Below are positions 1-57,431 of a DNA stretch of 64,000 nucleotides, piece by piece (position 1 is the stretch's first letter; each line of letters begins with the position of its first letter). Origin of the DNA: Sporolactobacillus laevolacticus DSM 442 (GTDB taxonomy: Bacteria; Bacillota; Bacilli; Bacillales; Sporolactobacillaceae). The notes beneath the pieces were generated by a model. It saw nothing but the letters and a program-made list of their open reading frames with translations. It made no database searches and was not told the origin of the DNA. A program made the position numbers and the translations under genes. The DNA is taken from contig NZ_AWTC01000005.1 in assembly GCF_000497245.1 (NCBI RefSeq), forward strand, positions 125,588-189,587. The letters are read 5' to 3'.

Positions 1-1065
1 AAAATCATCGTCCTCCCGGCTGCGCTCCCAAATGCGCGGGCTCAGCTGATTCGCAAGCTCTTTCAATTTTGCGCTGTTCGGGAACTGGTAACGGAGTACA
101 AAACGCTGTTTTTCATAGAGCTGATTTAACTCCTCACGCTTTTCCTTCAGATAATTGGTATAGTTTTCCTTGCGTTCTTTTCTTCGTTCTTTCGTCTGCC
201 TCGACTCCCTAACATACTGATAAACGGAAGTCACAATCGTTGAGAGAAACATTACGATCGAGATCAGCATATAAATGCCGCTTGGCTGAACAAAAAGCAC
301 AACCGCCATAACAATCAGCATGATCACCGGCGGCAAAATCATCATCCAGAGATTGCGGCGATTGTCGCCGTCTGAATCTGAGGGCCATGAAAATTTCACC
401 TTATCGTTTGGACGTTCATAAATCAGCCTCGGTATTCTTTGGTAGTCCGGATATTTGTCGGCGAGCATCGTTTTAGGATTTCGTGTTGGCGCAAACCGAG
501 TTTCAAATGCGTTACCCGCAGTCACTACGAGCAAATCTTCCGATTCCAAAATCCACTCATTCAAGCCCCAGAACAGAACATCACCAGCTTCAAGCGGCGC
601 ACTTTGATGCACACGCTCTCCATTCAAATAAACAGGAATGCCTTTGGATGAAGAAAAAATGCGCCAGATTTTCCCTTCTTTGCTCAACTGAAAACCCGGA
701 TCATCTTTATACTCCGGAAATGAGAAGTCAGCTGTTTCTGATGCTGATATCGACAGTTGAATGTCACTGCCAATATAGTACCCGGATGCCTCCGGAGCAT
801 CATCTGCCTGCTGACAAAACATATTCACTTTGCCGGTCTGCAAGGGTTCAGTGATGCTCACTAACCATTTGCTTTGAGCATATTGCTTATGCAGTTTCCA
901 GTTGTTATCTTCCTGATCCCAATTCAACCGGATCTTCTCATCCAATGTGTACGAAAGGGTGATGGTGTCCGACCATTCATTTCCAATAACCACTTCTTTT
1001 TTATGAAAAGGCTGAAGATCAATGACTTGAGCATGCTCTTCTGTAAACAGCCATAATTTTTCCAA
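1..1065 (-). CDS. essC: EssC/YukB-type T7SS ATPase, N-terminal part (runs off left edge)
   Basis: N-terminal 355 codons of the FtsK/SpoIIIE-type motor ATPase of the Firmicutes type VII (ESX/Yuk) secretion system, cut by the window edge. The start is TTG at 1065 because a strong Shine-Dalgarno (AGGAGGGGAG, 1071-1080) lies 5 nt upstream. The first 200 or so residues look like the tandem FHA-like domains of EssC (for example KIWRIFSSSKGIPVYLNGERV). Two adjacent membrane segments follow (around MMILPPVIMLIVMAVVLFV and MLISIVMFLSTIVTSVY), then a charged Arg/Lys/Glu helix. The P-loop ATPase modules lie outside the window. It follows essB by 49 nt in the same operon. The ATG-initiated plus-strand ORFs over this region are antisense shadows. 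Confidence 0.9.
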   Translation of the reverse strand, partial: MEKLWLFTEEHAQVIDLQPFHKKEVVIGNEWSDTITLSYTLDEKIRLNWDQEDNNWKLHKQYAQSKWLVSITEPLQTGKVNMFCQQADDAPEASGYYIGSDIQLSISASETADFSFPEYKDDPGFQLSKEGKIWRIFSSSKGIPVYLNGERVHQSAPLEAGDVLFWGLNEWILESEDLLVVTAGNAFETRFAPTRNPKTMLADKYPDYQRIPRLIYERPNDKVKFSWPSDSDGDNRRNLWMMILPPVIMLIVMAVVLFVQPSGIYMLISIVMFLSTIVTSVYQYVRESRQTKERRKERKENYTNYLKEKREELNQLYEKQRFVLRYQFPNSAKLKELANQLSPRIWERSREDDDF

Positions 1066-1114
1066 AAATGCTCCCCTCCTCACGAGGTCGTTCATATGCT
1101 ATATCCGTGTAGGC

Positions 1115-2440
1115 TTACTTTTTGCTCGAATCTTTTCCAGTTGAACTACCGTCTTTCTGTGATGACGATCCATCTTTCTGCCCACTGCTTTGAGTCTGGT
1201 TGGAGCTTCCACCACTTCCCCCCTGCGGGTTTTGATTTACATCCGCATTGGTGTTAATACTGCTACCGTCCGAAGTGCTCGCTTGCGTTTTCTGAGGTTT
1301 AACGTTATATTTCTTCAATTCTGAATCAATGCTCTGCAGTCGTTGTTGTTTTTGTTGACCGTTCATCGACAGATCGTCTTGAATTGCCCGTTGTTCTTTA
1401 ACCAGTGCATAGGCGATCAGAGTACGGTCATTGAGCGATCGTGCTGTATTCAAGGCACCGGCCGCTTCGCCACGCCCAACCTGAATCCAATATTGATAAT
1501 AAAGTGCATTACTTTGGAGGGTTAGATCATTTAATATGTTGTTGTGCTGCTCGTCGGTAAGGTTTTCATTTTTCACATAAGATACAGCGAGCTCGTAGCG
1601 GACAACTTTCGGCATTTTGCTGTAGGCAACGGAATTTAATGTTGTCGCTACATCGCTATACTGATTTTCCAGGAAAAATTCATGACTCTGCTGGAACAAA
1701 TTTTCTCGGGGAAGCTGTATGACAAAGGCATAAACCGTAAGAATAAGAAGAGGAATAAGAACTGCAAGACTACCAATCAGCATTCCATTCCGAGTTCTGT
1801 TCCTTTTTTTCGGGAGTCTGATGCTCTGTTTTTCAGTAACAATCTCTTTTTTACGTTCCTTCTCCACCAGAGCAGCCAGAGAATGAAAACTTGAACAACG
1901 AAAAAGATCTTTCACGAAACGCGTTGACTTTGCCGCGAAATCGAATTTCACATATGTATCGAAGCTGTTGGATGCATCAAACAAGGTCGCAATAACCGCC
2001 TTGACTTGTTGCAGTGCGGCTTCTTCCTCATAACTTAGAGGCGGTAGACTGTCTTTTACCCCATAATGAAGAAATACAGGCTGGAAACCTGTCGTAAAAA
2101 AGAGATTTTCCGGAAAACAAACCGGAATCAAGCGTGCGGGTTGGTAATGCTCAAAAAAGCGAATAAGATTGCTGGCAAAGATTAATTTTTCCGTGATGGT
2201 TTCCGAAGTCAGTTCTGTGAATCTTCTCAACCCGGGTACATTTGCCGAATGAATCACGATTTCATCTTCTGTTGATTCTACCGTTCGATTGATGCCATCA
2301 TGAATACTTTGCAGAACGCCTAATTCGTCCACATGGCGCATTGGAATTTTTGCACGTTGAAAAGTGAGGGTGTATTGGCTGTCCTGAACTTCCGCTTCTG
2401 CTTCAAATTTAGATTGAAAAAAGCTGTTTGATAGTGCCAT
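1115..2440 (-). CDS. essB: EssB/YukC, T7SS membrane pseudokinase-like subunit
   Basis: 441 aa, the bitopic membrane subunit of the type VII secretion channel. The N-terminal 215 or so residues are the cytosolic pseudokinase-like domain, including YVKFDFAAKSTRFVKDLFRC. One membrane segment spans about 219-241 (LIGSLAVLIPLLILTVYAFV), and an extracellular helical domain runs to about 385. The last 55 residues are low-complexity Ser/Gly/Gln/Lys, with SSSQKDGSSTGKDSS-type repeats, probably a flexible extracellular tail. SD AAGGAG lies 8 nt before the ATG. It sits between yukD (12 nt) and essC (49 nt), the B. subtilis yukEDCB order. The family is known to contact EssC in the channel; nothing here indicates what this system exports besides the WXG100 protein. 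Confidence 0.9.
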   Translation of the reverse strand: MALSNSFFQSKFEAEAEVQDSQYTLTFQRAKIPMRHVDELGVLQSIHDGINRTVESTEDEIVIHSANVPGLRRFTELTSETITEKLIFASNLIRFFEHYQPARLIPVCFPENLFFTTGFQPVFLHYGVKDSLPPLSYEEEAALQQVKAVIATLFDASNSFDTYVKFDFAAKSTRFVKDLFRCSSFHSLAALVEKERKKEIVTEKQSIRLPKKRNRTRNGMLIGSLAVLIPLLILTVYAFVIQLPRENLFQQSHEFFLENQYSDVATTLNSVAYSKMPKVVRYELAVSYVKNENLTDEQHNNILNDLTLQSNALYYQYWIQVGRGEAAGALNTARSLNDRTLIAYALVKEQRAIQDDLSMNGQQKQQRLQSIDSELKKYNVKPQKTQASTSDGSSINTNADVNQNPQGGSGGSSNQTQSSGQKDGSSSQKDGSSTGKDSSKK

Positions 2441-3044: not shown

Positions 3045-3587
3045 GATTAAATAACCTCCTTATTTTTTGCATACGCATACATTCGCATGCCGGAACTTCC
3101 ACAGGATGTGGTGACTTCGACGTTACGTACTTCCCCGCAGGATGCGGTCGCTTCCGCGTTGTACGCAGGACGTTCTTTCACAGGATGTGATGGCTTTCAC
3201 GTTACGTACAGGACGTACGTGCGTTAGCGAACGTTCCTTTAGTTCGTCGAAACCACTCTATCTATGAAATCCGTCAATGACGGTATTCCGCTGTATTCAA
3301 TTGGCACAATTAATTTAGCTATAGCATGGAATTACAGATAAAAAGCTTCTTGAGGTGCACTTCTGAAGTAAACTGCCGCGGTCACTTTGTCACAGAAAAT
3401 ACTAACTTGTTAACTTTTCCCACACATTATATAAAAAAGCCTACTGCTCTGAACACGGTCTAAACTCCTGAAAAACCCCGAAAAATCCCGCATCGCAAAG
3501 ATTTGCCGACAACCTTCGACAAGAAACACCGGGACAAATTTACTACGCCGATTTGTTAACGCTTTCATTTCGCTTTTCAGATCATAG
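3045..3587. other. Gene-free region upstream of esxA
   Basis: About 540 bp without a credible gene. The part nearest esxA (3099-3220) is packed with short GGA-loop hairpins, annotated separately. The rest is AT-rich. The esx operon promoter must lie here, but I could not choose one with confidence. Confidence 0.6.
3099..3220. repeat. Cluster of five GGA-loop mini-hairpins
   Basis: Five short palindromes with a central GGA: CCACAGGATGTGG (3099-3111), CCGCAGGATGCGG (3135-3147), ACGCAGGACGT (3163-3173), TCACAGGATGTGA (3178-3190) and ACGTACAGGACGTACGT (3204-3220). The stems differ but both arms change together, so the hairpin is conserved rather than the sequence. Linker words such as GACTTCGACGTT recur at the 38.6-kb copy. 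Confidence 0.75.
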
Positions 3588-3619: not shown

Positions 3620-3738
3620 CGTAAGTTTGTTAGTTGTTGATCATTTTTTTAACTATGACAAATGGCTATATTCACATCACTGTTCACTAGGCACTGAGCA
3701 TGAAATTTTCTACCATAAAGGTCCTGCTTCTTGAGTTT

Positions 3739-4272
3739 TCAGCCCATAAAGGCAGCACCGATCAGTAATGCCCCGGCAATGACAAAAGCCGGATGAATCC
3801 GAAAACGCTGTATCAGAACGAAACTTACGGCTCCAATCAAAACGAGTGGAAGCCATCCGGATGACTGAAACGAGGTCGAAAAAAAGTTATAGGCCATCAT
3901 CCCGAGCATGACGACGATAATCGGCCGAATCAATAAGGTAAGCCACTTTACTTTGGGCGAATCTTTAAATTTGTAGAGTAGCCGCAGCAGAACAATGAGC
4001 AAAATCAGCGATGGTGCGATTGTTGCAAACAGAGCAACGAAAGAACCTGGAACGCCGGCAACCTGGTAACCGATATAGCCGGCCATTTGCGGCGCGATCG
4101 GGCCTGGCAATGAATTTCCGAAGGCTAGGACATTACTGAACCTTGTGACTGTCATCCAGTGATAATGGCCGACCACTTCGTTTTCAATCAGTGGAATGGA
4201 TGCCGGGCCGCCGCCATATCCAAGAATTCCCGGTATAAAGAAAGCAAGGAACACGTGCCATAGAAGGATCAT
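3739..4272 (-). CDS. ywrA: CHR-family transporter half (YwrA-like)
   Basis: 177 aa integral membrane protein, one half of a split chromate-transporter (CHR/ChrA) family pair. The N-terminal family motif reads YGGGPASIPLIENEVV, followed by the LPGP loop (SLPGPIAPQMAGYIGY). The remainder is four or five hydrophobic helices. Its start overlaps the stop of the preceding gene by 4 nt (ATGA, 4269-4272), so the halves are translationally coupled and probably form a heteromer. Size, order and the neighbouring gamma-glutamyltransferase gene match B. subtilis ywrB-ywrA/ywrD. CHR proteins export chromate in some bacteria; the physiological substrate here is unknown. Confidence 0.85.
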   Translation of the reverse strand: MILLWHVFLAFFIPGILGYGGGPASIPLIENEVVGHYHWMTVTRFSNVLAFGNSLPGPIAPQMAGYIGYQVAGVPGSFVALFATIAPSLILLIVLLRLLYKFKDSPKVKWLTLLIRPIIVVMLGMMAYNFFSTSFQSSGWLPLVLIGAVSFVLIQRFRIHPAFVIAGALLIGAAFMG

Positions 4273-8136: not shown

Positions 8137-9129
8137 TCATTTTTTAGCAATTGCTCCTTGTTTTTTGACGGTCATTTTGCTGATCTGCGTTCCTTGGTAA
8201 AAATAAGTGATAATCTGCTTAGCACTCTTTCCTTCACGAGCCATTCCTTCAGCTCCATATTGGCTCAGGCCGACGTCATGGCCGCTCCCCAATGTTAAAG
8301 CCTTTATTGTATCTCCGTTCTGGGTGAGCTGGAAATCGGTCGAACTTAAATTTAATTTTTCACGTATCTGTCTGCCAGTAAATTGCTTTCCGCCAAGTTC
8401 GTAAAGCGCAACATGATCCGTTGCGGTCTTTCGGATCACTTTTCCTAAACTACCTTTGTTGCTTCCAATACTGACACCAAGTGCCTGCTCAACGTCGGCT
8501 GCGCGTAGTGTTTTCTCAATTTTGTATTTTGGTGAGAGTTTATCCCAAGGGCTGGACACCGATTTGAGATAAGGAACATCTGTCGTCCAATAATCCTTCG
8601 CGTTCTCGGTCTGTCCGTTGCTTGTTGAAAAAAACACAGGTGAAATCAGCTTGCCACCATAAGTGACCACTTGATTATTTGTCTCTGCGACCGCCTGTTT
8701 TACCTTTTTCATTTTCCACCCATAGTCTTTGCCCCAGATTTTTTTAAACTCTTCTGGACTATGATAGACTTGATTTTGGACGGTATCTGTGACACGGACA
8801 TTTGGATTTTCAATAATTCGTGCCATAATATAAGTACGGGCCGCTATTGCTTGAGCTTTCAGCGCCTCAATTCGAAATTTGGCTGGCATTTCTGAACCGA
8901 CTACCCCGATCAGATAGTCGTTAAGCGCCACCTGATCGGTCCGTTTTTCAGTCGATCGATAGACAGTAACGGAAATCAACGCATGTCGTGCCGCACTATT
9001 CTGTGTCTGACTTACTTTTTTCTGCGGTTGTTCCTGAGCAGCCTTTTGCGTGAACGGAATAACAACCACTGCGGGGATAATAATAATAACAAGCGCGAAG
9101 AGGAAGATGAGCACAGCGGCTTTCTTCAT
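8137..9129 (-). CDS. spoIID: SpoIID, sporulation lytic transglycosylase
   Basis: 330 aa, the mother-cell enzyme that cleaves peptidoglycan glycan strands during engulfment, together with SpoIIM and SpoIIP. An N-terminal signal anchor spans residues 5-25 (VLIFLFALVIIIIPAVVVIPF). The SpoIID domain follows, with the catalytic Glu at E80 in VVGSEMPAKFRIEALKAQAIAARTY and the C-terminal GSGHDVGLSQYGAEGMA motif expected of the family. SD GGAGG lies just upstream. The gene sits immediately upstream of murAA, as in B. subtilis, but they are separated by the murAA terminator region. Sigma-E control is expected from the family. Confidence 0.93.
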   Translation of the reverse strand: MKKAAVLIFLFALVIIIIPAVVVIPFTQKAAQEQPQKKVSQTQNSAARHALISVTVYRSTEKRTDQVALNDYLIGVVGSEMPAKFRIEALKAQAIAARTYIMARIIENPNVRVTDTVQNQVYHSPEEFKKIWGKDYGWKMKKVKQAVAETNNQVVTYGGKLISPVFFSTSNGQTENAKDYWTTDVPYLKSVSSPWDKLSPKYKIEKTLRAADVEQALGVSIGSNKGSLGKVIRKTATDHVALYELGGKQFTGRQIREKLNLSSTDFQLTQNGDTIKALTLGSGHDVGLSQYGAEGMAREGKSAKQIITYFYQGTQISKMTVKKQGAIAKK

Positions 9130-38341: not shown

Positions 38342-38886
38342 CCTTTCCCTTTATCAATACTCTCGCCAAAAAATGCCTAGGTGCGGCCGACGGAATCTTG
38401 CCATTATGCCGGATATCCGCATACCAAGAAAAAATCCGTAAATCTTTTATCCAAAAAACGCATTTGGTAACCTGTACCAAGAAACGTTTGGAAAAACGCA
38501 CACTAAGACTCATTGTAAAGTTATACATTAAATACAATAATCCGTTCATGGATTAAAATCAAGTCTAGATAAAGAAAAAATTGGTGAAACCAAGCCTCGC
38601 GCAGGCTGAGCTTCCACAGGATGTGGTGACTTCGACGTTGCTTACAGGACGTAAGCGAAGTTAGTCGAAGTTCCTCTTTCGTTACACTTATACTAGGTAC
38701 CGCTACTCTCTTATATTTTATACATGCTTATTTGTACAAGAAAATAGTGGTTCAATCTTTTTTATTCATTTTTTTACCACTCTAATGATCAGCTAAAGAT
38801 AATCCATTCAAGATACATTCGCGAAAATGGGATATATTATGAACAAGACAATCATTATGCAGGCCTATCCGATCGGAGGACATGTG
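38342..38886. other. Divergent gene-free region rpoE / cls
   Basis: About 545 bp. It holds two GGA-loop mini-hairpins (annotated next) and an AT-rich stretch near 38730-38830 that probably has the cls promoter. No convincing gene was seen. Confidence 0.5.
38614..38656. repeat. Two GGA-loop mini-hairpins
   Basis: CCACAGGATGTGG (38614-38626) and GCTTACAGGACGTAAGC (38640-38656), linked by TGACTTCGACGTT as in the cluster upstream of esxA. Confidence 0.75.
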
Positions 38887-49502: not shown

Positions 49503-49842
49503 TAGAGGATATTCAAAAAGTCCGGGAAAAGGTAAGAAGGATCTTCTGCTAATAACGTGCACGTCTTGTGCACAACGCAGAAGTCACCACATCCTGTGGA
49601 AGTTCTGCGTCAACTTGTTTCTCCGCTCCTCACGTATTAACAGGGGAACTCCAACTAAGAACGCGTACGTCCTGTACGCAACGTTGAAGTCACTACATCC
49701 TGTAGAAGTACGCTCCGGTACTCGAAACTGCGTTTCCTTGATCTTCGACGCACAGGACGTGCTAGTGTCAGGTATGCCACAGGACGTGGCGTTTTGCCTT
49801 ACCTCGGCCCTTTTTGTCCTCCTTTTTGAACAAGCTCTACTA
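49503..49842. repeat. MITE-like element, long copy with nested mini-hairpins
   Basis: Ends TAGAGGATATTCAAAAAGTC (left) and CTTTTTGAACAAGCTCTAC (right) are imperfect inverted repeats. It matches the 31595-31750 element block by block, but is interrupted at three places by segments carrying GGA/TCC-loop hairpins (49557-49599, 49663-49705, 49750-49790). It fills the ywgA-ywfO gap (49469-49870); no gene lies here. Confidence 0.82.
49557..49790. repeat. Six GGA/TCC-loop mini-hairpins
   Basis: GTGCACGTCTTGTGCAC (49557-49573), CCACATCCTGTGG (49587-49599), GCGTACGTCCTGTACGC (49663-49679), CTACATCCTGTAG (49693-49705), GCACAGGACGTGC (49750-49762) and GCCACAGGACGTGGC (49776-49790). Stem pairs covary; loops stay GGA or TCC apart from the first. 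Confidence 0.78.
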
Positions 49843-51296: not shown

Positions 51297-52085
51297 TTAT
51301 TGCAGTTGGTCTACTATTCTTTTTCTGTTTTTAAAATAAACTGGAGTAAGCTGATATTCTTTTGCCATCGCCAGGCCTAACGGATATTTTATGCCAATTG
51401 TATCCGGTGAATGGTTGTCGCCACCAATCGTCACGTATTTACCACCCAACTCTCGATACCGGCGAACGATGCTTTCAAGTCCCTCCCTGAATGAGGGCTG
51501 ATCAATCAGGCGAAGATTGATCTCCAGGCAAATATCATTCTCAATCAGTGTAAAAAGAAAATTGTCAATCAACAGCGGAAAATCTTCATAACGGAGCACG
51601 TTATCTGAATACGTGAGATAGCGACACGGATAGTCGATATGCGCAAACGTGTCGATATACGGATTTTGATGGATCGTGTTCTCCGCATAAATCAGATACT
51701 GTGAAAAAAAGTCCTGTTTGGAGAGGAAATTTTTCGTACGATCACTGTACATGTCATAGTCCTGAAGATTGTGAACAGAACCAATAACCATATCGAAAGG
51801 ATGTGATTCTGCTATCGTTCGATTACGTGTTATGTAATCAGGACGATTATCCAACCCTAGCTCGATTCCGAGCAATAATCGTTCGCCACGAAATGATGAA
51901 TACGCTTCAAAATAGCGATCAATTTCGAAGTCAACCGGTCTGCCGTCTTCTTGTTGTTCGTTCAGATCATAGTGTTCGGTAAGCACTAAATTCAAATTAT
52001 ACTTTTCCGCTTCCTTCAGTGCATCTTGGATGTTCATATCCGCATCAAATGAAAAATGTGTATGATTATGTGTATCAAATGGCAT
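51297..52085 (-). CDS. PHP-domain phosphatase (histidinol-phosphatase-like)
   Basis: 262 aa from ATG 52085 (MPFDTHNHTHFSFDADMN), placed after SD GGAGG at 11 nt; the upstream ATG at 52103 is part of that SD region. The first PHP metal motif H-x-H is DTHNHTHFS, and further histidines and aspartates follow (TEHYD, GSVHNL, FAHIDYP, IGGDNHSPD), filling a trinuclear site. The HisK/histidinol-phosphatase family is the closest match, but no his genes are nearby, so the substrate is uncertain. It overlaps the yczE-like gene by 11 nt. Confidence 0.85.
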   Translation of the reverse strand: MPFDTHNHTHFSFDADMNIQDALKEAEKYNLNLVLTEHYDLNEQQEDGRPVDFEIDRYFEAYSSFRGERLLLGIELGLDNRPDYITRNRTIAESHPFDMVIGSVHNLQDYDMYSDRTKNFLSKQDFFSQYLIYAENTIHQNPYIDTFAHIDYPCRYLTYSDNVLRYEDFPLLIDNFLFTLIENDICLEINLRLIDQPSFREGLESIVRRYRELGGKYVTIGGDNHSPDTIGIKYPLGLAMAKEYQLTPVYFKNRKRIVDQLQ

Positions 52086-52758
52086 GATGGTCGTTTCCTC
52101 CATTCATCTGTCCGTTTTTGCTTACAAATCCTTCAAACATATGTCTGTCAAGATAGATATGGTGCACGGTTTTGACGTCAAATCGGCACAATTTAAACGT
52201 TGCTTGAACAAAAATACCAATCAAAGAAACCATGATGACCGTGCCGATTCCAACTGAACCGCCAAGGATCCAGCCAAGCAGCAAGGCAACGCCTTCGTTG
52301 CAGGTTCGAATCAGACGAACGGACTGCTTGGTCTTGCGCGCGAGCACAACCATCAAACCATCTCTTGGACCCGCGCCGAAACCCGCGCTTATGTATAAAT
52401 AGGTACCGAAACTGATGATTACCAGTCCAGCAAGAACCATCAGAATACGGGCAGAAAGGTTTTGAAACTCGGGCACAAGGTGATTCAGCATAAGCATATC
52501 CATAAAAAGACCGATGAACAACATATTTGCCAATGTGCCAAATCCTATTTTCTCTCCAAAAATCCTGTTCACAATGACAATGAGGAACGCCACGAGAATG
52601 TTGGCCATTCCGATCGTCATGTGCAGGGTTCTGGAAAGCCCCTGATGCAGCACATCCCACGGCTGCAGGCCTAAATGAGCGTTGATGGTGCAGACAGCGC
52701 CCAATGAGAACAAAAACAGACCGAGAAAAAGCTTGGCCAGATTCATTGTTATTTTCAA
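52075..52758 (-). CDS. YczE-family membrane protein
   Basis: 227 aa from TTG 52758, which follows SD AGGAG at 8 nt; the longer frame reaching 52806 has none. Five hydrophobic helices with family motifs INAHLGLQPWDVLHQGLS and SAGFGAGPRDGLMVVLARKT, both typical of YczE/YyaS. The role is unknown (B. subtilis YczE affects non-ribosomal lipopeptide production). It shares an operon with the PHP gene. Confidence 0.85.
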   Translation of the reverse strand: MKITMNLAKLFLGLFLFSLGAVCTINAHLGLQPWDVLHQGLSRTLHMTIGMANILVAFLIVIVNRIFGEKIGFGTLANMLFIGLFMDMLMLNHLVPEFQNLSARILMVLAGLVIISFGTYLYISAGFGAGPRDGLMVVLARKTKQSVRLIRTCNEGVALLLGWILGGSVGIGTVIMVSLIGIFVQATFKLCRFDVKTVHHIYLDRHMFEGFVSKNGQMNGGNDHHAI

Positions 52759-52966
52759 AACATCAACTCCTATTCCATGTGTCAACGAATAAAAACGTTC
52801 GCACAAACATATTTTCTCCGAACATCACTAGACTCGTCCTTAAAGTATAAATTTAATTACACTTTGAAACAATGAATGTCAAAAATTAATTTCCTTGATC
52901 TATTTCTGCATCCGGAACCTCATATAGATGCTCGCTTTCTACCCTATCAACTTTTAGAAATGACTG

Positions 52967-52995
52967 TTGACGAACGTAAAATCGAGTGCTATATT
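52967..52995 (+). promoter_or_regulatory. Sigma-A promoter of the ilvD leader
   Basis: TTGACG (52967-52972), a 17-bp spacer and TATATT (52990-52995). It is well placed for a start near 53002, 37 nt ahead of the leader-peptide ATG. Confidence 0.75.
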
Positions 52996-53038
52996 TGACC
53001 ATACGAAAATTCTTATTTATTTTAAGAGGCTGATTATT

Positions 53039-53080
53039 ATGTTATTCCTATCCCATTCTCGAGTCTTGATTATTATCTAG
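53039..53080 (+). CDS. Leader peptide of the ilvD attenuator (13 aa)
   Basis: Reads MLFLSHSRVLIII followed by TAG at 53078-53080. SD AAGAGG (53024-53029) lies 9 nt before the ATG. Five of the last five residues, and seven of 13 overall, are Leu, Ile or Val. The stop codon's G is also the first base of the first stem of the attenuator (53080-53123). Such a peptide has no folding or export signature; its likely role is to let ribosome position report the supply of charged branched-chain tRNAs, as in the enteric ilv leaders. The matching peptide before the second transporter gene (56172-56222) differs in sequence but shares these properties. Confidence 0.8.
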   Translation: MLFLSHSRVLIII

Positions 53081-53183
53081 GATCCTGGCAATCGCTGAAA
53101 ATTTAAAACGATTGTCCGGGTCCTCATTGGCATTGAATGGGAGCCGGACAAAACTCCCATTGTATTTCAAATGGGAGTTTTTT
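53080..53183 (+). promoter_or_regulatory. Branched-chain attenuator upstream of ilvD
   Basis: Five pairing segments. S1 GGATCCTGGCAATCG (53080-53094) pairs with S2 CGATTGTCCGGGTCC (53109-53123). Alternatively TCCGGGTCCTCATT (53115-53128) pairs with S3 AATGGGAGCCGGA (53136-53148). S3's AATGGGAG can also pair perfectly with S4 CTCCCATT (53154-53161), which otherwise forms the terminator with S5 AATGGGAGT (53170-53178) and TTTTTT. Inferred logic: a ribosome finishing the peptide masks S1, S2:S3 forms, S4:S5 terminates; a ribosome stalled earlier leaves S1:S2, S3:S4 forms, and transcription continues. Confidence 0.82.
53153..53183 (+). terminator. Attenuator terminator before ilvD
   Basis: ACTCCCATT (53153-53161) and AATGGGAGT (53170-53178) followed by TTTTTT; 41 nt before the ilvD start. 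Confidence 0.9.
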
Positions 53184-53223
53184 AATTTCCAGATTTTATT
53201 TTCAAAGAGAGGATGAACAAACA

Positions 53224-54951
53224 TTGAGAAGCGATGAAATCAAGAAGGGCGTGGATCGAGCTCCAGCGCGAAGCCTGCTGCGAGCAACCGGTGTTGTAAG
53301 AAACGAAGAGGATATGCACAAACCGTTTATCGCGGTATGTAATTCCTATGTGGACATTGTTCCAGGCCATGTTCATTTAAGAGAATTGGCTGATGTCGCA
53401 AAGCAAGCGATACGCGAAGCAGGCGGCATTCCATTTGAATTTAACACGATAGGCGTTGATGACGGCATTGCAATGGGCCACATTGGCATGCGTTATTCGC
53501 TTCCGAGCCGTGAACTGATCGCGGACGCAGCTGAGACGATGATCAACGCGCACTGGTTCGACGGCGTTTTCTATATCCCAAACTGTGATAAAATCACGCC
53601 TGGTATGCTGCTCGCAGCTGTCCGAACCAATGTACCCGCCATCTTCTGTTCTGGAGGACCAATGAAAGCGGGACTGTCCGCTCAAGGGAAGGCACTGACC
53701 CTGTCATCCGTATTTGAAGGCGTAGGCGCTTTTAAAGAAGGCCAAATCACAAAAGAACAGTTCCTGGATATCGAAGCTTCCGCATGTCCAACCTGCGGTT
53801 CTTGCGCCGGAATGTTTACCGCCAATTCGATGAACTGCTTGATGGAAATGCTCGGTGTCGCCCTTCCAGGAAACGGTACAGCCCTTGCGGTATCTGAAGA
53901 AAGGCGTGACCTGATCAAGCAATCTGCCTACAAATTAATGGATCTTGTAAAAAATAATGTTCGGCCAAGAGACATCATCACCCCTGAAGCTGTCGATGAT
54001 GCATTCGCACTCGACATGGCGATGGGCGGATCGACCAATACAGTGCTGCACATGCTCGCTGTCGCTTCCGAAGCCGGTATCGACTATGACCTCGATCGAA
54101 TTAATCACGTAGCGAAAAAAGTACCCTATCTAGCAAAAATAGCCCCAAGCTCATCATTCTCGATGCAGGATGTTCATGAAGCAGGAGGCATCTCCGCAAT
54201 TATCAAAACGCTTGCCGACATGGGCGGTGTTATTCATCCGGACCGGATTACTGTCTCCGGACAAACACTTCGAGAAAATGTCGCCGATGCGGAAATCAAG
54301 AATCCGAAAGTCATTCATCCACTGAATGAGGCGTACAGCAAAACCGGCGGATTATCAGTTCTCTTTGGAAACATTGCACCAAAAGGCGCGGTCATCAAAG
54401 TCGGCGGTGTTGATCCTTCGGTCAAAACATTTACCGGCGAAGCCATTTGTTTCAACTCCCATGATGAGGCGGTCGAGGCGATCGACAACCATACCGTCCG
54501 CAAGGGCCATGTTGTCGTCATCCGATACGAGGGGCCAAAAGGCGGTCCGGGCATGCCGGAAATGCTGGCACCTACCTCGTCGATTGTCGGACGCGGACTT
54601 GGCAAAGATGTAGCTCTGATTACCGACGGACGTTTTTCCGGTGCAACTCGCGGCATTTCAGTCGGGCATGTATCACCAGAAGCCGCAGCCGGTGGACCGA
54701 TCGCACTTATTCAGGACGGAGAAAAAATCACAATAGATCTGCTTGAGCGAACCGTACATCTTGACGTAACTGATGCCGAACTTGCTGCACGGCGCAAATC
54801 GTTAAAAGCTTTTGTTCCAAAGGTCCGCTCAGGTTATCTCGCTCGTTATGCTGCGCTCGTAACTTCCGCCCATACCGGTGGTGTCATGCGTCTCCCAGAA
54901 GCATGGTCTGACAGCAACAAGGCCGAAAAAGAAACCGATACTGTTAAATGA
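53224..54951 (+). CDS. ilvD: Dihydroxy-acid dehydratase
   Basis: 575 aa from TTG 53224 ([23 protein letters not shown]); the frame is open to 53137, but that part overlaps the attenuator, and SD GAGAGG lies just before the TTG. The enzyme makes 2-ketoisovalerate and 2-keto-3-methylvalerate for valine, isoleucine, leucine and pantothenate synthesis. Iron-sulfur cysteines lie in [10 protein letters not shown] and [12 protein letters not shown]; the active-site [11 protein letters not shown] region is intact. No other ilv or leu gene is in the window. It forms an operon with a BASS transporter 96 nt downstream and is preceded by the attenuator. Confidence 0.97.
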
Positions 54952-55047: not shown

Positions 55048-56031
55048 ATGAAAGTTGTTGTTTCAACAGGACAGTTCTTAGGCAAGTATTTCGCACTCTT
55101 CGTTTTGGCAGCGGCAGCTGTCAGCTATTATCAACCAAATCTGATCACTTGGGTACTCCCTTATGTCAACTATCTACTCGGCATAATCATGTTCGGGATG
55201 GGTATGACTTTGAAAAGATCAGATTTTGCCGCTGTTTTTAAGCGCCCTAAAGATGTCATCATCGGCGTTTGTGCCCACTATCTAATCATGCCGCTCGTTG
55301 CTTTCGCCCTCTGTTTTGCATTTCATCTTCCTCCGGCCGTTGCCGTTGGCGTCATCCTCGTTGGTTGCTGTCCAAGTGGTACGGCTTCCAATGTAATGTG
55401 TTTTCTGGCAAAAGGCGACGTCGCGCTCGGCGTTTCAATCGGCGCTGTTTCGACCTTGATTGCTCCGGTAATGCTTCCTCTTATCCTTTGGCTATTAGCG
55501 GGTCATTGGGTAAAGATTCCGACAAGTTCACTTTTTGTCAGCGTTGTGGAAATTGTGATCGTGCCAATCGTTCTTGGCGTTTTGGTTAATACCTTCTTTG
55601 GCAAGAAGGTTCACAAGGTGACTGCCGCACTGCCGCTCGTTTCGACTGTGGCCATTATCCTGATCGCCGGTGGTGTCGTTGCGGCTTCTAACAAAAATGG
55701 CGACTTGCTGACAGCCAGCACGTTAGTGATTATACCTGTCGTTATCCTGCATAATCTGCTCGGCTACTCATTAGGTTTCTTTTTCAGCCGCTTGCTTGGC
55801 ATGAATCATTCTAAGAGTCGCGCAATCACATTTGAAGTTGGAATGCAGAACTCAGCGCTCGGTGTTGCACTTGCTATGGCATTTTTCTCGCCGGTCGCCG
55901 CTATACCTGCTACCCTGTTCAGTATCTGGCATAACATGTCCGGATCCCTTCTCGCTTCTTTCTGGGCAGGAAAAAAAGGGACTTACTCAAAGAATACGAA
56001 TGTTGACGCTGCTACGAGTGCAGCAAACTGA
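55048..56031 (+). CDS. BASS-family transporter 1 (PanS-like), in operon with ilvD
   Basis: 327 aa with about ten membrane helices, a bile acid:sodium symporter (BASS) fold. Motifs include FGMGMTLKRSDF, the GCCPSGTASNVMCFLAKGDVALGVS crossover region with Cys-Cys, and FEVGMQNSALGVALA. The family includes a ketopantoate transporter (PanS), other organic-acid carriers and bile acid carriers. Cotranscription with ilvD, whose product 2-ketoisovalerate precedes ketopantoate, makes a branched-chain keto acid or ketopantoate a plausible substrate (inference). SD AAAGGATG precedes the ATG. A second, close paralogue lies 425 nt downstream. Confidence 0.88.
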   Translation: MKVVVSTGQFLGKYFALFVLAAAAVSYYQPNLITWVLPYVNYLLGIIMFGMGMTLKRSDFAAVFKRPKDVIIGVCAHYLIMPLVAFALCFAFHLPPAVAVGVILVGCCPSGTASNVMCFLAKGDVALGVSIGAVSTLIAPVMLPLILWLLAGHWVKIPTSSLFVSVVEIVIVPIVLGVLVNTFFGKKVHKVTAALPLVSTVAIILIAGGVVAASNKNGDLLTASTLVIIPVVILHNLLGYSLGFFFSRLLGMNHSKSRAITFEVGMQNSALGVALAMAFFSPVAAIPATLFSIWHNMSGSLLASFWAGKKGTYSKNTNVDAATSAAN

Positions 56032-56104: not shown

Positions 56105-56134
56105 TTGACATTATTCCTTGCAAGATGATATAGT
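56105..56134 (+). promoter_or_regulatory. Sigma-A promoter of the second attenuator
   Basis: TTGACA (56105-56110), an 18-bp spacer and TATAGT (56129-56134), 38 nt before the leader-peptide ATG. Confidence 0.78.
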
Positions 56135-56171
56135 TTCATCACCAAAATTGTTTTGCAAGGAGTTAGCAATC

Positions 56172-56222
56172 ATGGTTTTCCTATTCGATGTACGAGTCAA
56201 TGAAATCGTCTTGATTTTGTAG
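56172..56222 (+). CDS. Leader peptide of the second attenuator (16 aa)
   Basis: Reads MVFLFDVRVNEIVLIL followed by TAG (56220-56222), with SD AAGGAG (56157-56162) 9 nt before the ATG. Nine of 16 residues are Val, Leu or Ile, including the last five in a row. The G of the stop codon starts the S1 stem. Sequence similarity to the ilvD leader peptide is limited to composition and the VL-I ending. This argues that the amino acid content, not the exact peptide, has been kept. Confidence 0.8.
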   Translation: MVFLFDVRVNEIVLIL

Positions 56223-56325
56223 GATCCAGGCAACCGTTAAAAATAACGTTTGTCCGGGTCCTCATTGGCATCGAATGGGATCCGGAAAAAGCTCCCGTTC
56301 GCATCATGTGGACGGGAGCTTTTTT
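56222..56325 (+). promoter_or_regulatory. Branched-chain attenuator upstream of BASS transporter 2
   Basis: Same architecture as before ilvD. S1 GGATCCAGGCAACCGTT (56222-56238) pairs with S2 AACGTTTGTCCGGGTCC (56245-56261). The alternative is TCCGGGTCCTCATT (56253-56266) with S3 AATGGGATCCGGA (56274-56286). S3's AATGGGA can pair with TCCCGTT (56293-56299), which otherwise joins the terminator (AGCTCCCGT 56290-56298, ACGGGAGCT 56312-56320, T-run). The terminator arms differ from the ilvD copy on both sides while pairing is kept. Confidence 0.82.
56290..56325 (+). terminator. Attenuator terminator before BASS transporter 2
   Basis: AGCTCCCGT and ACGGGAGCT with a TTTTTT tail, about 130 nt ahead of the transporter start codon. 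Confidence 0.9.
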
Positions 56326-56456: not shown

Positions 56457-57431
56457 ATGAATCGAATTGTTAGCCTTGGACGCTTTATAAGCGGACATTT
56501 TGTCTGGTTTGTCCTTGCAGCCGCCGCCATTGCCTATTTCCAACCTGCACTAGCTATCTGGGTTGTTCCCTATGTTCCTTATTTGCTGGGAATTGTCATG
56601 TTCGGCATGGGCATGACCCTGAAACGCTCCGATTTTGCAGATGTTTTCAAAGCGCCAAAAGAAGTTGCACTAGGAGTAGCCGCGCATTACTTGATTATGC
56701 CTTTGACTTCGCTAGCAATTTGCACACTGTTTCAGCTGCCCGATGCGATCGCCGTCGGCGTTATTCTTGTCGGTTGTTGTCCAAGCGGCACTGCGGCCAA
56801 CGTGATGTGCTATCTGGCAAAAGGCGATGTTGCTCTCGGCGTTTCGATCGGCACGGTCACGACTTTTATTGCACCTCTGATGCTGCCCGTTCTGCTTCTG
56901 CTCTTAGCTGGGCGCTGGGTTAGCATACCTGCTGTTTCTATGTTTATCAATGTCCTTGAAATTGTTGTTGTGCCTGTCATTCTTGGGCTTCTCGTCAATA
57001 CATTTCTTGGTGAAAAAGTTAGAAGAGCAACCGAGGCGCTTCCTCTTGTGTCAACATCTGCAATCTTGCTAATTATTGGAGGAGTCGTTGCCGCAAACAG
57101 TGCCAACTTATTTAAGCGTGAGATGCTTATTCTAATCCCAGTCGTCATCATGATTAACTTAATTGGTTCAGCAATTGCCTTTTTCGCAAGCAGGTTGTTA
57201 GGCATCGACCATGTCAAGAGCCGGTCGATTTCTTTTGAAACCGGAACGCAGAATTCTGCACTCGGGCTTTCTCTTGCACTTGCCTTCTTTTCACCGGCTG
57301 CGGCGATCCCCGGTACCTTGTTCAGTGTCTGGCAAAATATATCCGGACCGATGCTTGCATCTTACTGGGCAGGAAAAAAAGCTATAAAAGCTGAGAAAAA
57401 AACAAACAGTGCCCCTGATCCTGTTAACTGA
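56457..57431 (+). CDS. BASS-family transporter 2 (PanS-like)
   Basis: 324 aa, paralogous along its whole length to the gene 425 nt upstream: FGMGMTLKRSDFADVFKAP, GCCPSGTAANVMCYLAKGD and FETGTQNSALGLSLALAFF line up without gaps. It has ten or so membrane helices. It has its own promoter and attenuator, so each copy can respond separately to branched-chain amino acid supply. SD AGAAGGG lies somewhat far from the ATG. A bidirectional terminator follows. The substrate is inferred only from context, as for copy 1. Confidence 0.88.
   Translation: MNRIVSLGRFISGHFVWFVLAAAAIAYFQPALAIWVVPYVPYLLGIVMFGMGMTLKRSDFADVFKAPKEVALGVAAHYLIMPLTSLAICTLFQLPDAIAVGVILVGCCPSGTAANVMCYLAKGDVALGVSIGTVTTFIAPLMLPVLLLLLAGRWVSIPAVSMFINVLEIVVVPVILGLLVNTFLGEKVRRATEALPLVSTSAILLIIGGVVAANSANLFKREMLILIPVVIMINLIGSAIAFFASRLLGIDHVKSRSISFETGTQNSALGLSLALAFFSPAAAIPGTLFSVWQNISGPMLASYWAGKKAIKAEKKTNSAPDPVN

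Follow-up and report, generated by a model that had tools for sequence, protein, structure and literature searches.

A probable ribosome-mediated attenuator before ilvD of Sporolactobacillus laevolacticus, with an apparent additional pairing strand and copies before further genes

The window, i.e., the whole stretch of 64,000 nucleotides that was analysed (G000:C5:125588-189587), is part of the 3.59-Mb draft genome of Sporolactobacillus laevolacticus DSM 442. A leader at 52967-53183 comprises a promoter, a Shine-Dalgarno site, a small open reading frame (ORF), the overlapping stems S1-S5 and an intrinsic terminator, and ilvD lies downstream of it; the leader region is bounded by an ORF on the minus strand (52075-52806) and by ilvD itself (53224). 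The features of the leader and of the adjoining genes are the following:

52967..52995, plus strand: promoter TTGACG-17-TATATT with TG before the -10 element (motif scan; 10 of 12 consensus positions)
53024..53029, plus strand: Shine-Dalgarno site AAGAGG, 9 bases 5' of the leader start
53039..53080, plus strand: leader peptide ORF MLFLSHSRVLIII-stop, 13 codons
53051..53058, plus strand: S0, TCCCATTC, inside the ORF, partner of S3 (fold, covariation)
53079..53094, plus strand: S1, partner of S2 (fold, covariation)
53109..53128, plus strand: S2 (53109-53124 with S1; 53114-53128 with S3)
53135..53149, plus strand: S3, GAATGGGAGCCGGAC, with the competing partners S0, S2 and S4 (folding, covariation)
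53150..53161, plus strand: S4, partner of S3 (antiterminator) or of S5 (terminator) (terminator scan, covariation)
53170..53183, plus strand: S5 and T run, the end of the intrinsic terminator (terminator scan)
53224..54951, plus strand: ilvD, dihydroxy-acid dehydratase, probable TTG start (Pfam, NCBIfam)
55048..56031, plus strand: BASS-family transporter following ilvD, best NCBIfam match PanS below the cut-off
56105..56325, plus strand: second attenuator copy, diverged, with promoter TTGACA-18-TATAGT, stems and terminator (DNA search, covariance model)
56172-56222, plus strand: leader of the second copy, MVFLFDVRVNEIVLIL-stop, 16 aa
56457..57431, plus strand: another BASS-family transporter, PanS-like (NCBIfam, below the cut-off), preceded by the second attenuator copy

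The original prediction for this leader had named the promoter, the Shine-Dalgarno site, the 13-codon ORF, the alternative stems and the terminator, every one of which was recovered by the scans, and the alternative pairings S2:S3, S3:S4 and S4:S5 as well as S1:S2 can all be written; the strand S0 (53051-53058) and the second copy (~56105-56325) had escaped it. The promoter alone is weak evidence, since six promoter-like sites were found on both strands of the 701-base region compared to 2.0 expected; by eye, comparable promoters lie upstream of the leaders of relatives. The S4:S5 hairpin with its T run was the sole find of the terminator scan (1 found, 0.3 expected), and the folding of 53001-53190 beats that of 200/200 dinucleotide shuffles (z = -4.35). 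A mechanical ORF call puts the start of ilvD at ATG 53137, inside the attenuator (604 aa), TTG 53224 being the likelier start; annotated ilvD starts may hide the leader, because such a call extends the ORF by 53137-53223 into the attenuator. Elsewhere, the window contains four Bacillaceae-1 RNAs (RF01690) above the gathering score, at 3177-3243 and 38613-38680 on the minus strand and at 49533-49600 and 49639-49706 on the plus strand, two of the four in tandem.

The Rfam scan of the leader returned no family at the gathering score, and the ten sub-threshold matches (E up to 10) belong to unrelated families. The T-box (RF00230) is an RNA element that senses tRNA charging; the ilvD leader would sense tRNA charging as well, through translation. 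As an identity of the ilvD leader the T-box was rejected, there being no covariance-model match at the site: the genome has 19 T-box matches, 12 of them above the cut-off, and none lies here, which bears out the earlier statement that no T-box motif is present. The accompanying remark that branched-chain genes of Bacillales are usually controlled by T-boxes is a fair generality, also for this genome, where a T-box match (C1:68770-69028; 76.1 bits, under the family cut-off of 93) precedes leuA, the leuA match (69186; 596.1 bits, cut-off 598.7) beginning 158 bases past it. With a T-box before leuA and a leader peptide before ilvD, two different sensors of tRNA charging seem to serve a single pathway. 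The CodY box has the motif AATTTTCWGAAAATT. In the 3266 bases of the ilvD locus (L009) it has 0 matches with up to three mismatches (chance expectation 0.34), so that a CodY box near the promoter was rejected at the level of the motif. The published 'ilvD motif' WRC-18-2, finally, is according to its authors confined to Veillonella (PMC8632094).

Leucine, valine and isoleucine account for 7 of the 12 non-start codons of the window leader. The leader peptides of other Sporolactobacillus copies, such as MSFLSYLRVLIII, MFVSSQLRVVIII, MLNLFDERVLYVVIII and MVFLFDVRVNEIVLIL, were compared in an alignment of 44 copies from Sporolactobacillus, Staphylococcus, Enterococcus and one MAG labelled Eubacterium (A4), which replaced an earlier one of 60 rows (A3) that held some antisense matches. 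It holds 44 of 51 sources; the lower-scoring loci L105, L110, L114, L117, L120, L124 and L125 were left out of it and of the covariance model R2 and are still counted in the tests of ilvD loci, in the wider S0 test and in the test of 54 leaders. By a fixed rule, an ORF with a Shine-Dalgarno-like site was found in 44/44 leaders. Of the last eight codons before S1, 70% are Ile, Leu or Val when read in frame, the two other frames giving 29% and 16% and the remainder of the peptide 19%, i.e., the branched-chain codons are kept directly 5' of S1 and the other residues drift. Part of this in-frame enrichment is selected, because the covariance model R1, which was built from 19 Sporolactobacillus copies with the structure S1:S2 + S4:S5, spans the last four codons. 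Over the next four codons on the 5' side, which the model does not span, the share is 60% in frame vs 19% and 12%; inclusion of ten further leaders of lower score gives 62% vs 18% and 12%, the ORF being present in 54/54. The original prediction had stated that stems kept with loss of the ORF or of its branched-chain codons would point to a riboswitch; ORF and in-frame codons are kept in all 44 leaders. The terminal run varies among the three amino acids (VLIII, VVIII, IIII, VVILIS, EIVLIL, LLLIVIIT). In two close species (L020 and L043, genomes G017 and G018) the leader stop TAG is replaced by CAG and the ORF therefore continues into S1, which the L020 peptide enters by 6 residues; in both genomes the leader of the reductase copy (L087, L081; see below) likewise has CAG for TAG.

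Two alternative sets of pairings were evaluated in 19 copies. S1:S2 + S3:S4 gave 94.1% of the cells paired and S2:S3 + S4:S5 gave 94.5%, the covariation score of each lying above 500/500 shuffles. For S1:S2 + S4:S5, 96.8% were paired over 44 leaders with two-sided changes in 23/26 pairs (0/500 shuffles), this alignment having been fitted to S1:S2 + S4:S5 and thus being biased towards that structure. The terminator helix is paired to 100% in the 19 leaders and to 99.8% in the 44. Permutation of partners gave 0/5000 for S2:S3 overall and 50/5000 for S3:S4 overall, which is modest, and no S3:S4 signal was visible within Staphylococcus or Enterococcus. In the alignments, a mutually exclusive terminator and antiterminator are thus conserved with covariation, S3:S4 being the weakest part.

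Next to these strands, the minimum-energy fold revealed a further one inside the leader ORF: codons 5-7 (TCCCATTC) are paired with GAATGGGA of S3. In the 19 copies the ORF pairs with its own S3 at a mean of -18.3 kcal/mol compared to -12.8 with the S3 of other copies, and 0/20,000 permuted assignments fitted as well as the own partners. When the codons were shuffled, 16/19 leaders beat at least 98% of 300 shuffled ORFs; L023, L025 and L026 fail this test at 5%. The peptide residues over S0 vary while the S0:S3 pairing covaries. Permutation within groups gave 0/5000 in the ilvD-like Sporolactobacillus set (n = 20), 7/5000 in the reductase set (n = 11), 364/5000 in Staphylococcus (n = 9) and 848/5000 in Enterococcus with the MAG (n = 4). 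A looser test on 25 loci outside Sporolactobacillus resulted in a fraction of 0.022 for the 12 staphylococcal loci and 0/5000 for the 13 others, just 10 of the 25 beating their own letter shuffles at 95%; in staphylococci the weakly supported candidate S0 (CCATTC) lies in the 5' UTR, just 5' of the Shine-Dalgarno site. Within Sporolactobacillus, S0:S3 is a well supported pairing as judged by this covariation, and comparison among leaders likewise brings out the ORF, its codons and the covarying pairings S1:S2, S2:S3 and S4:S5.

The influence of the ribosome position was modelled by folding 19 transcripts in which S4 is out and S5 not yet, the bases under the ribosome being held single-stranded with five different footprints. 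Without a ribosome, the window leader has its S3 bound to the ORF region (0.92). When the base footprint is used, an A site at Val9 or Leu10 gives S3:S4 (0.91 and 0.86), and from Ile12 to the stop S3:S2 prevails (0.87). Over the five footprints, S3:S4 amounts to 0.86-0.91 at Val9, 0.15-0.88 at Leu10, where the largest footprint gives the 0.15, and 0.00-0.85 at Ile11; Val9 and Leu10 are therefore the predicted sensing codons, together with Ile11 if the ribosome footprint allows it. With the base footprint, the mean S3:S4 of the 19 leaders falls from 0.73, when the A site is at the fifth-last codon, to 0.06 at the stop; over all five footprints the two means are 0.65-0.79 and 0.06-0.14, respectively. 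In the free state S3 is predominantly paired with the upstream strand in 13 leaders, the window leader included, mixed in two (L017, L019) and mostly on S4 in four (L020, L024, L025, L026), which run against the model. In L018, L022 and L028 S0:S3 re-forms behind the ribosome; therefore only the earlier branched-chain codons give S3:S4 (Val9-Leu10, Val10 and Val9, respectively) and the terminal Ile/Leu/Val run does not. The last one or two codons give no S3:S4 in L011, L012 and L015. At the equilibrium of the full-length transcript the terminator prevails in 18/19 leaders in every ribosome state (lowest value 0.89; the exception is L024), and for this reason the antiterminator must be kinetic, i.e., it must form first.

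The leader is, on these comparisons, very probably a ribosome-mediated transcription attenuator that includes S0 and raises ilvD expression when charged branched-chain tRNA is short. With no ribosome on the leader, S0 would hold S3 and S1 would hold S2, so that the S4:S5 terminator forms and ilvD is off. Under starvation, a ribosome stalled with Val9 or Leu10 (perhaps Ile11) in the A site would cover S0 and leave S1:S2 intact; the free S3 would then capture S4 before S5 is made, no terminator would form in time and ilvD would be on. With amino acids in plenty, the ribosome would reach the stop codon and cover S1, S2 would take S3 and the S4:S5 terminator would switch ilvD off again. Translation of the leader, the positions of the stall, the order of folding and the starvation response with its size are what we infer from sequence and folding. 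Attenuation of ilvD by a ribosome reading branched-chain codons was already the core of the original prediction, and the ORF with its in-frame codons in 44/44 leaders supports it. The attenuators of the enterobacterial ilv, leu and trp operons combine a leader peptide rich in codons of the regulated amino acid with mutually exclusive stems and an intrinsic terminator. Compared to these, the element has one strand more, namely the stall-sensitive S0 within the ORF, which brings the partners of S3 to three.

The original prediction had arrived at a different wiring, in which S0 is idle, S1:S2 and S3:S4 form in the untranslated leader and the leader reads through. Conservation of both S1:S2 and S3:S4 suits such a wiring, as does the free state of the four leaders that favour S3:S4 and the two that are mixed. 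Nevertheless, it is unlikely: S0:S3 is part of the minimum-energy structure and covaries with none of 20,000 permutations as good, and the free window leader has S3 on the ORF region at 0.92. Moreover, in Listeria monocytogenes, where Rli60 was described as a ribosome-mediated attenuator before ilvD with a BCAA-rich leader of 13 aa (Brenner et al. 2018, PMC5864092; review PMC8079631), mutants of the start codon and of the RBS are reported to have lowered ilvD transcription in low-BCAA medium (PMC5864092), which speaks against readthrough of an untranslated leader. Once the S0:S3 pairing, which the original prediction omitted, is included, a terminator is predicted in the absence of a ribosome; the readthrough prediction is thereby reversed, in line with the upstream position of free S3 in 13/19 leaders.

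The BASS transporter at 55048-56031 may be co-transcribed with ilvD; by eye, a similar-looking gene follows ilvD in 10/12 named Sporolactobacillus loci, and in the other two the contig ends. R1 finds four strong copies in the own genome, i.e., before ilvD, before the transporter gene at 56457, before a gene of the ketopantoate-reductase family (contig C8) and as an orphan (C9). The reductase was assigned to its family through the corresponding gene of G012 (L080), whose match exceeds the TIGR00745 cut-off. The reductase copy is present in 14/15 genus genomes, with leaders such as MFRSKANELVVILIS; in the remaining genome, G022, no such copy was found, the match there (L189) having been rejected as a chance terminator. 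For the transporter copy, an intact leader was seen in two genomes (L026, L028); in two others inspected (L084, L086) the copy is degraded. The orphan adjoins the ilvB-ilvC-ilvA cluster (genes named by eye) and is divergent from it, and divergence from ilvB was seen in 5/5 loci inspected (L024, L190-L193). In the copies L190-L193 (own copy L192 at ~3629-3742, minus strand) the leader is intact, e.g., MNRPLQRMVKAIIIIS, and no gene clearly follows; these orphans perhaps stem from an ilvD that has been lost, or represent a free small RNA. In L024 (G013) an intact attenuator copy is followed by an ilvD-like remnant of 130 residues (1030-1422, minus strand).

A covariance-model search had been proposed with the original prediction, and R1 recovers the element in 15/15 genomes of the genus (best match per genome E <= 1.3e-28); a DNA search found it in 14/26 genomes of the family, i.e., in 14/15 within and 0/11 outside the genus. 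R1 gave no convincing copy in any of the 11 genomes sampled from the rest of the family, where four matches (E 0.003-0.005) look like plain terminators. At the level of the order, 25 genomes outside the genus matched at E <= 0.001; the six of these that were inspected (L059-L064) look like ordinary terminators or a T-box, as do L075 and L076. Also set aside were antisense matches, in which the model meets its own hairpins, and a weak match in the own genome (C5:91897, E 0.009). Among 80 ilvD loci of named genomes, chosen as the best matches to the window IlvD, R1 has a plus-strand match directly before ilvD in all 12 from Sporolactobacillus and, at E <= 4e-4, in another 25, with one more (L109) at 0.02; R2 matches 26 others at E <= 1.2e-5, leaving 42 loci without a match. 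The others positive for R1 are 12/12 Staphylococcaceae (E 7e-12 to 2.3e-6; S. aureus is not among them), 9/10 named Enterococcus (one Candidatus included), Vagococcus and some MAGs. No Bacillaceae, Caryophanaceae, Alicyclobacillaceae, Lactobacillaceae or Lactococcus locus among the 80 was matched by R1 or R2. As a model built from Sporolactobacillus alone reaches these loci, the element belongs to the ilvD attenuator group of Staphylococcus and Enterococcus as delimited by R1 and R2. At E <= 1e-5 and with stricter filters, R2 matched in 38/396 genomes of the class and 2/338 of the phylum, the own genome being counted in both. The loci L069-L074 (genus g148) were rejected as Listeria and read as Staphylococcus, the leader of L070 matching that of the Staphylococcus xylosus locus L111.

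Outside Sporolactobacillus the element also occurs before other genes, all named by eye: in G653 before two genes, of which one is ilvB-like (leader MKSFKAANFNIVVIIVT) and the other aminotransferase-like (MKKTAQVVIIINKQDFTN), and in G502, a genome of the Vagococcus family, before a leuA-like gene (L221, ~8171-8284), where the leader MTKSTTSIYRLLLMQGPV has three consecutive Leu codons. In this one genome the leuA-like leader reads RLLLM and the ilvD leader LVIILL, i.e., the codon content of the two sequences follows the regulated gene. This bears on two further explanations. If the nascent peptide itself arrested the ribosome, its hydrophobic C-terminal run responding to a cue other than tRNA charging, the strong conservation of a hydrophobic run near the stop would be accounted for; the free interchange of Ile, Leu and Val within the run and the LLL of the leuA-like leader make this very improbable. 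Still less credible is a metabolite riboswitch or protein-binding leader with an accidental small ORF, which could draw on the long conserved stems and on the separate ilvD-linked Veillonella motif filed as a weak riboswitch candidate (PMC8632094), and which is contradicted by in-frame codons kept in 44/44 leaders, by a peptide that varies over S0 while the pairing covaries, by the Leu codons of the leuA-like copy and by a leader with no Rfam riboswitch at the gathering score.

The closest sequence to the window IlvD among the best 80 matches is that of S. kofuensis (96%), and its nearest named relatives are Sporolactobacillus species. In an IlvD tree of 81 rows, made with a quick method, midpoint rooting and a sample biased towards the window IlvD, all 39 attenuated rows lie inside one group of 48 (SH-aLRT 100), and the attenuator label requires 3 changes compared to 27.3 with shuffled labels. 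The Sporolactobacillus IlvD groups with those of Staphylococcus and Enterococcus, not with Bacillaceae. Because of this grouping and because the 11 family members outside the genus gave no convincing copy, ilvD and its attenuator may have been acquired together.

The kind of device is known, since two ilvD attenuators have been published: leader-peptide attenuation of ilvD was described for S. aureus (PMC5794164) and for Listeria (PMC5864092), so that the novelty implied by the original prediction does not hold. For S. aureus ilvD, a leucine-rich attenuator peptide of high BCAA content, conserved in staphylococci, was reported (Kaiser et al. 2018, PMC5794164), which has the position before ilvD, the BCAA-rich leader ORF and the terminator in common with the element, and the staphylococcal IlvD belongs to the same well-supported tree group as the window IlvD. 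In the S. aureus model (PMC5794164) the antiterminator forms between GAAUGG and the poly-U tail, the stem of the terminator staying intact, whereas in Sporolactobacillus S3 pairs with S4; the staphylococcal leaders inspected have 22-26 aa compared to 13 codons in the window leader. For Rli60, the antiterminator 2:3 and the terminator 3:4 would equal S3:S4 and S4:S5 of Sporolactobacillus, a likeness drawn from the published description, which gives four segments and no S0 (PMC5864092). The Rfam model of rli60 (RF02414; gathering score 60 bits) has no match at this score in the window and none up to E = 10 in the leader, nor did it match in the own genome or in G021; it does match staphylococcal ilvD leaders. 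As R1 recovers these rli60-type staphylococcal leaders, the element belongs with them by likely descent and not by the Rfam definition. Neither the Sporolactobacillus element nor S0 nor the small regulon was found in print in the literature covered, subscription journals thinly so. New are the S0 strand and the wider gene set, and already known, from Staphylococcus and Listeria, is the kind of attenuator.

As a summary, several genes are apparently controlled in this way, and S0:S3 seems to be an additional pairing that had not been reported. The gene set seems to constitute a small regulon of ilvD, a PanS-like transporter and an enzyme of the ketopantoate-reductase family, with ilvB, an aminotransferase and a leuA leader in other genera. 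A more far-reaching reading, to which we give somewhat less than an even chance, is that one design spread within Sporolactobacillus into a branched-chain starvation regulon, whose members (ilvD, a PanS-like BASS transporter and the ketopantoate-reductase-family enzyme) may jointly salvage branched 2-keto and 2-hydroxy acids; that S0 makes of it a three-input switch, on only with a stalled ribosome and off without ribosomes or with fast ones; and that this layout, inherited with ilvD, underlies the attenuators of S. aureus and possibly Listeria. If this is true, the published models of the S. aureus and possibly of the Listeria attenuator would be incomplete. The ilvD attenuators of several Gram-positive genera are linked here through a single covariance model and an IlvD group that they have in common, S0 adds a covarying strand that would decide the fate of the untranslated leader, and the attenuator device stands also before genes outside the textbook pathway. 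For Sporolactobacillus, the predicted sensing of branched-chain amino acids also provides a clue to the function of the PanS-like transporter and the PanE-like enzyme.
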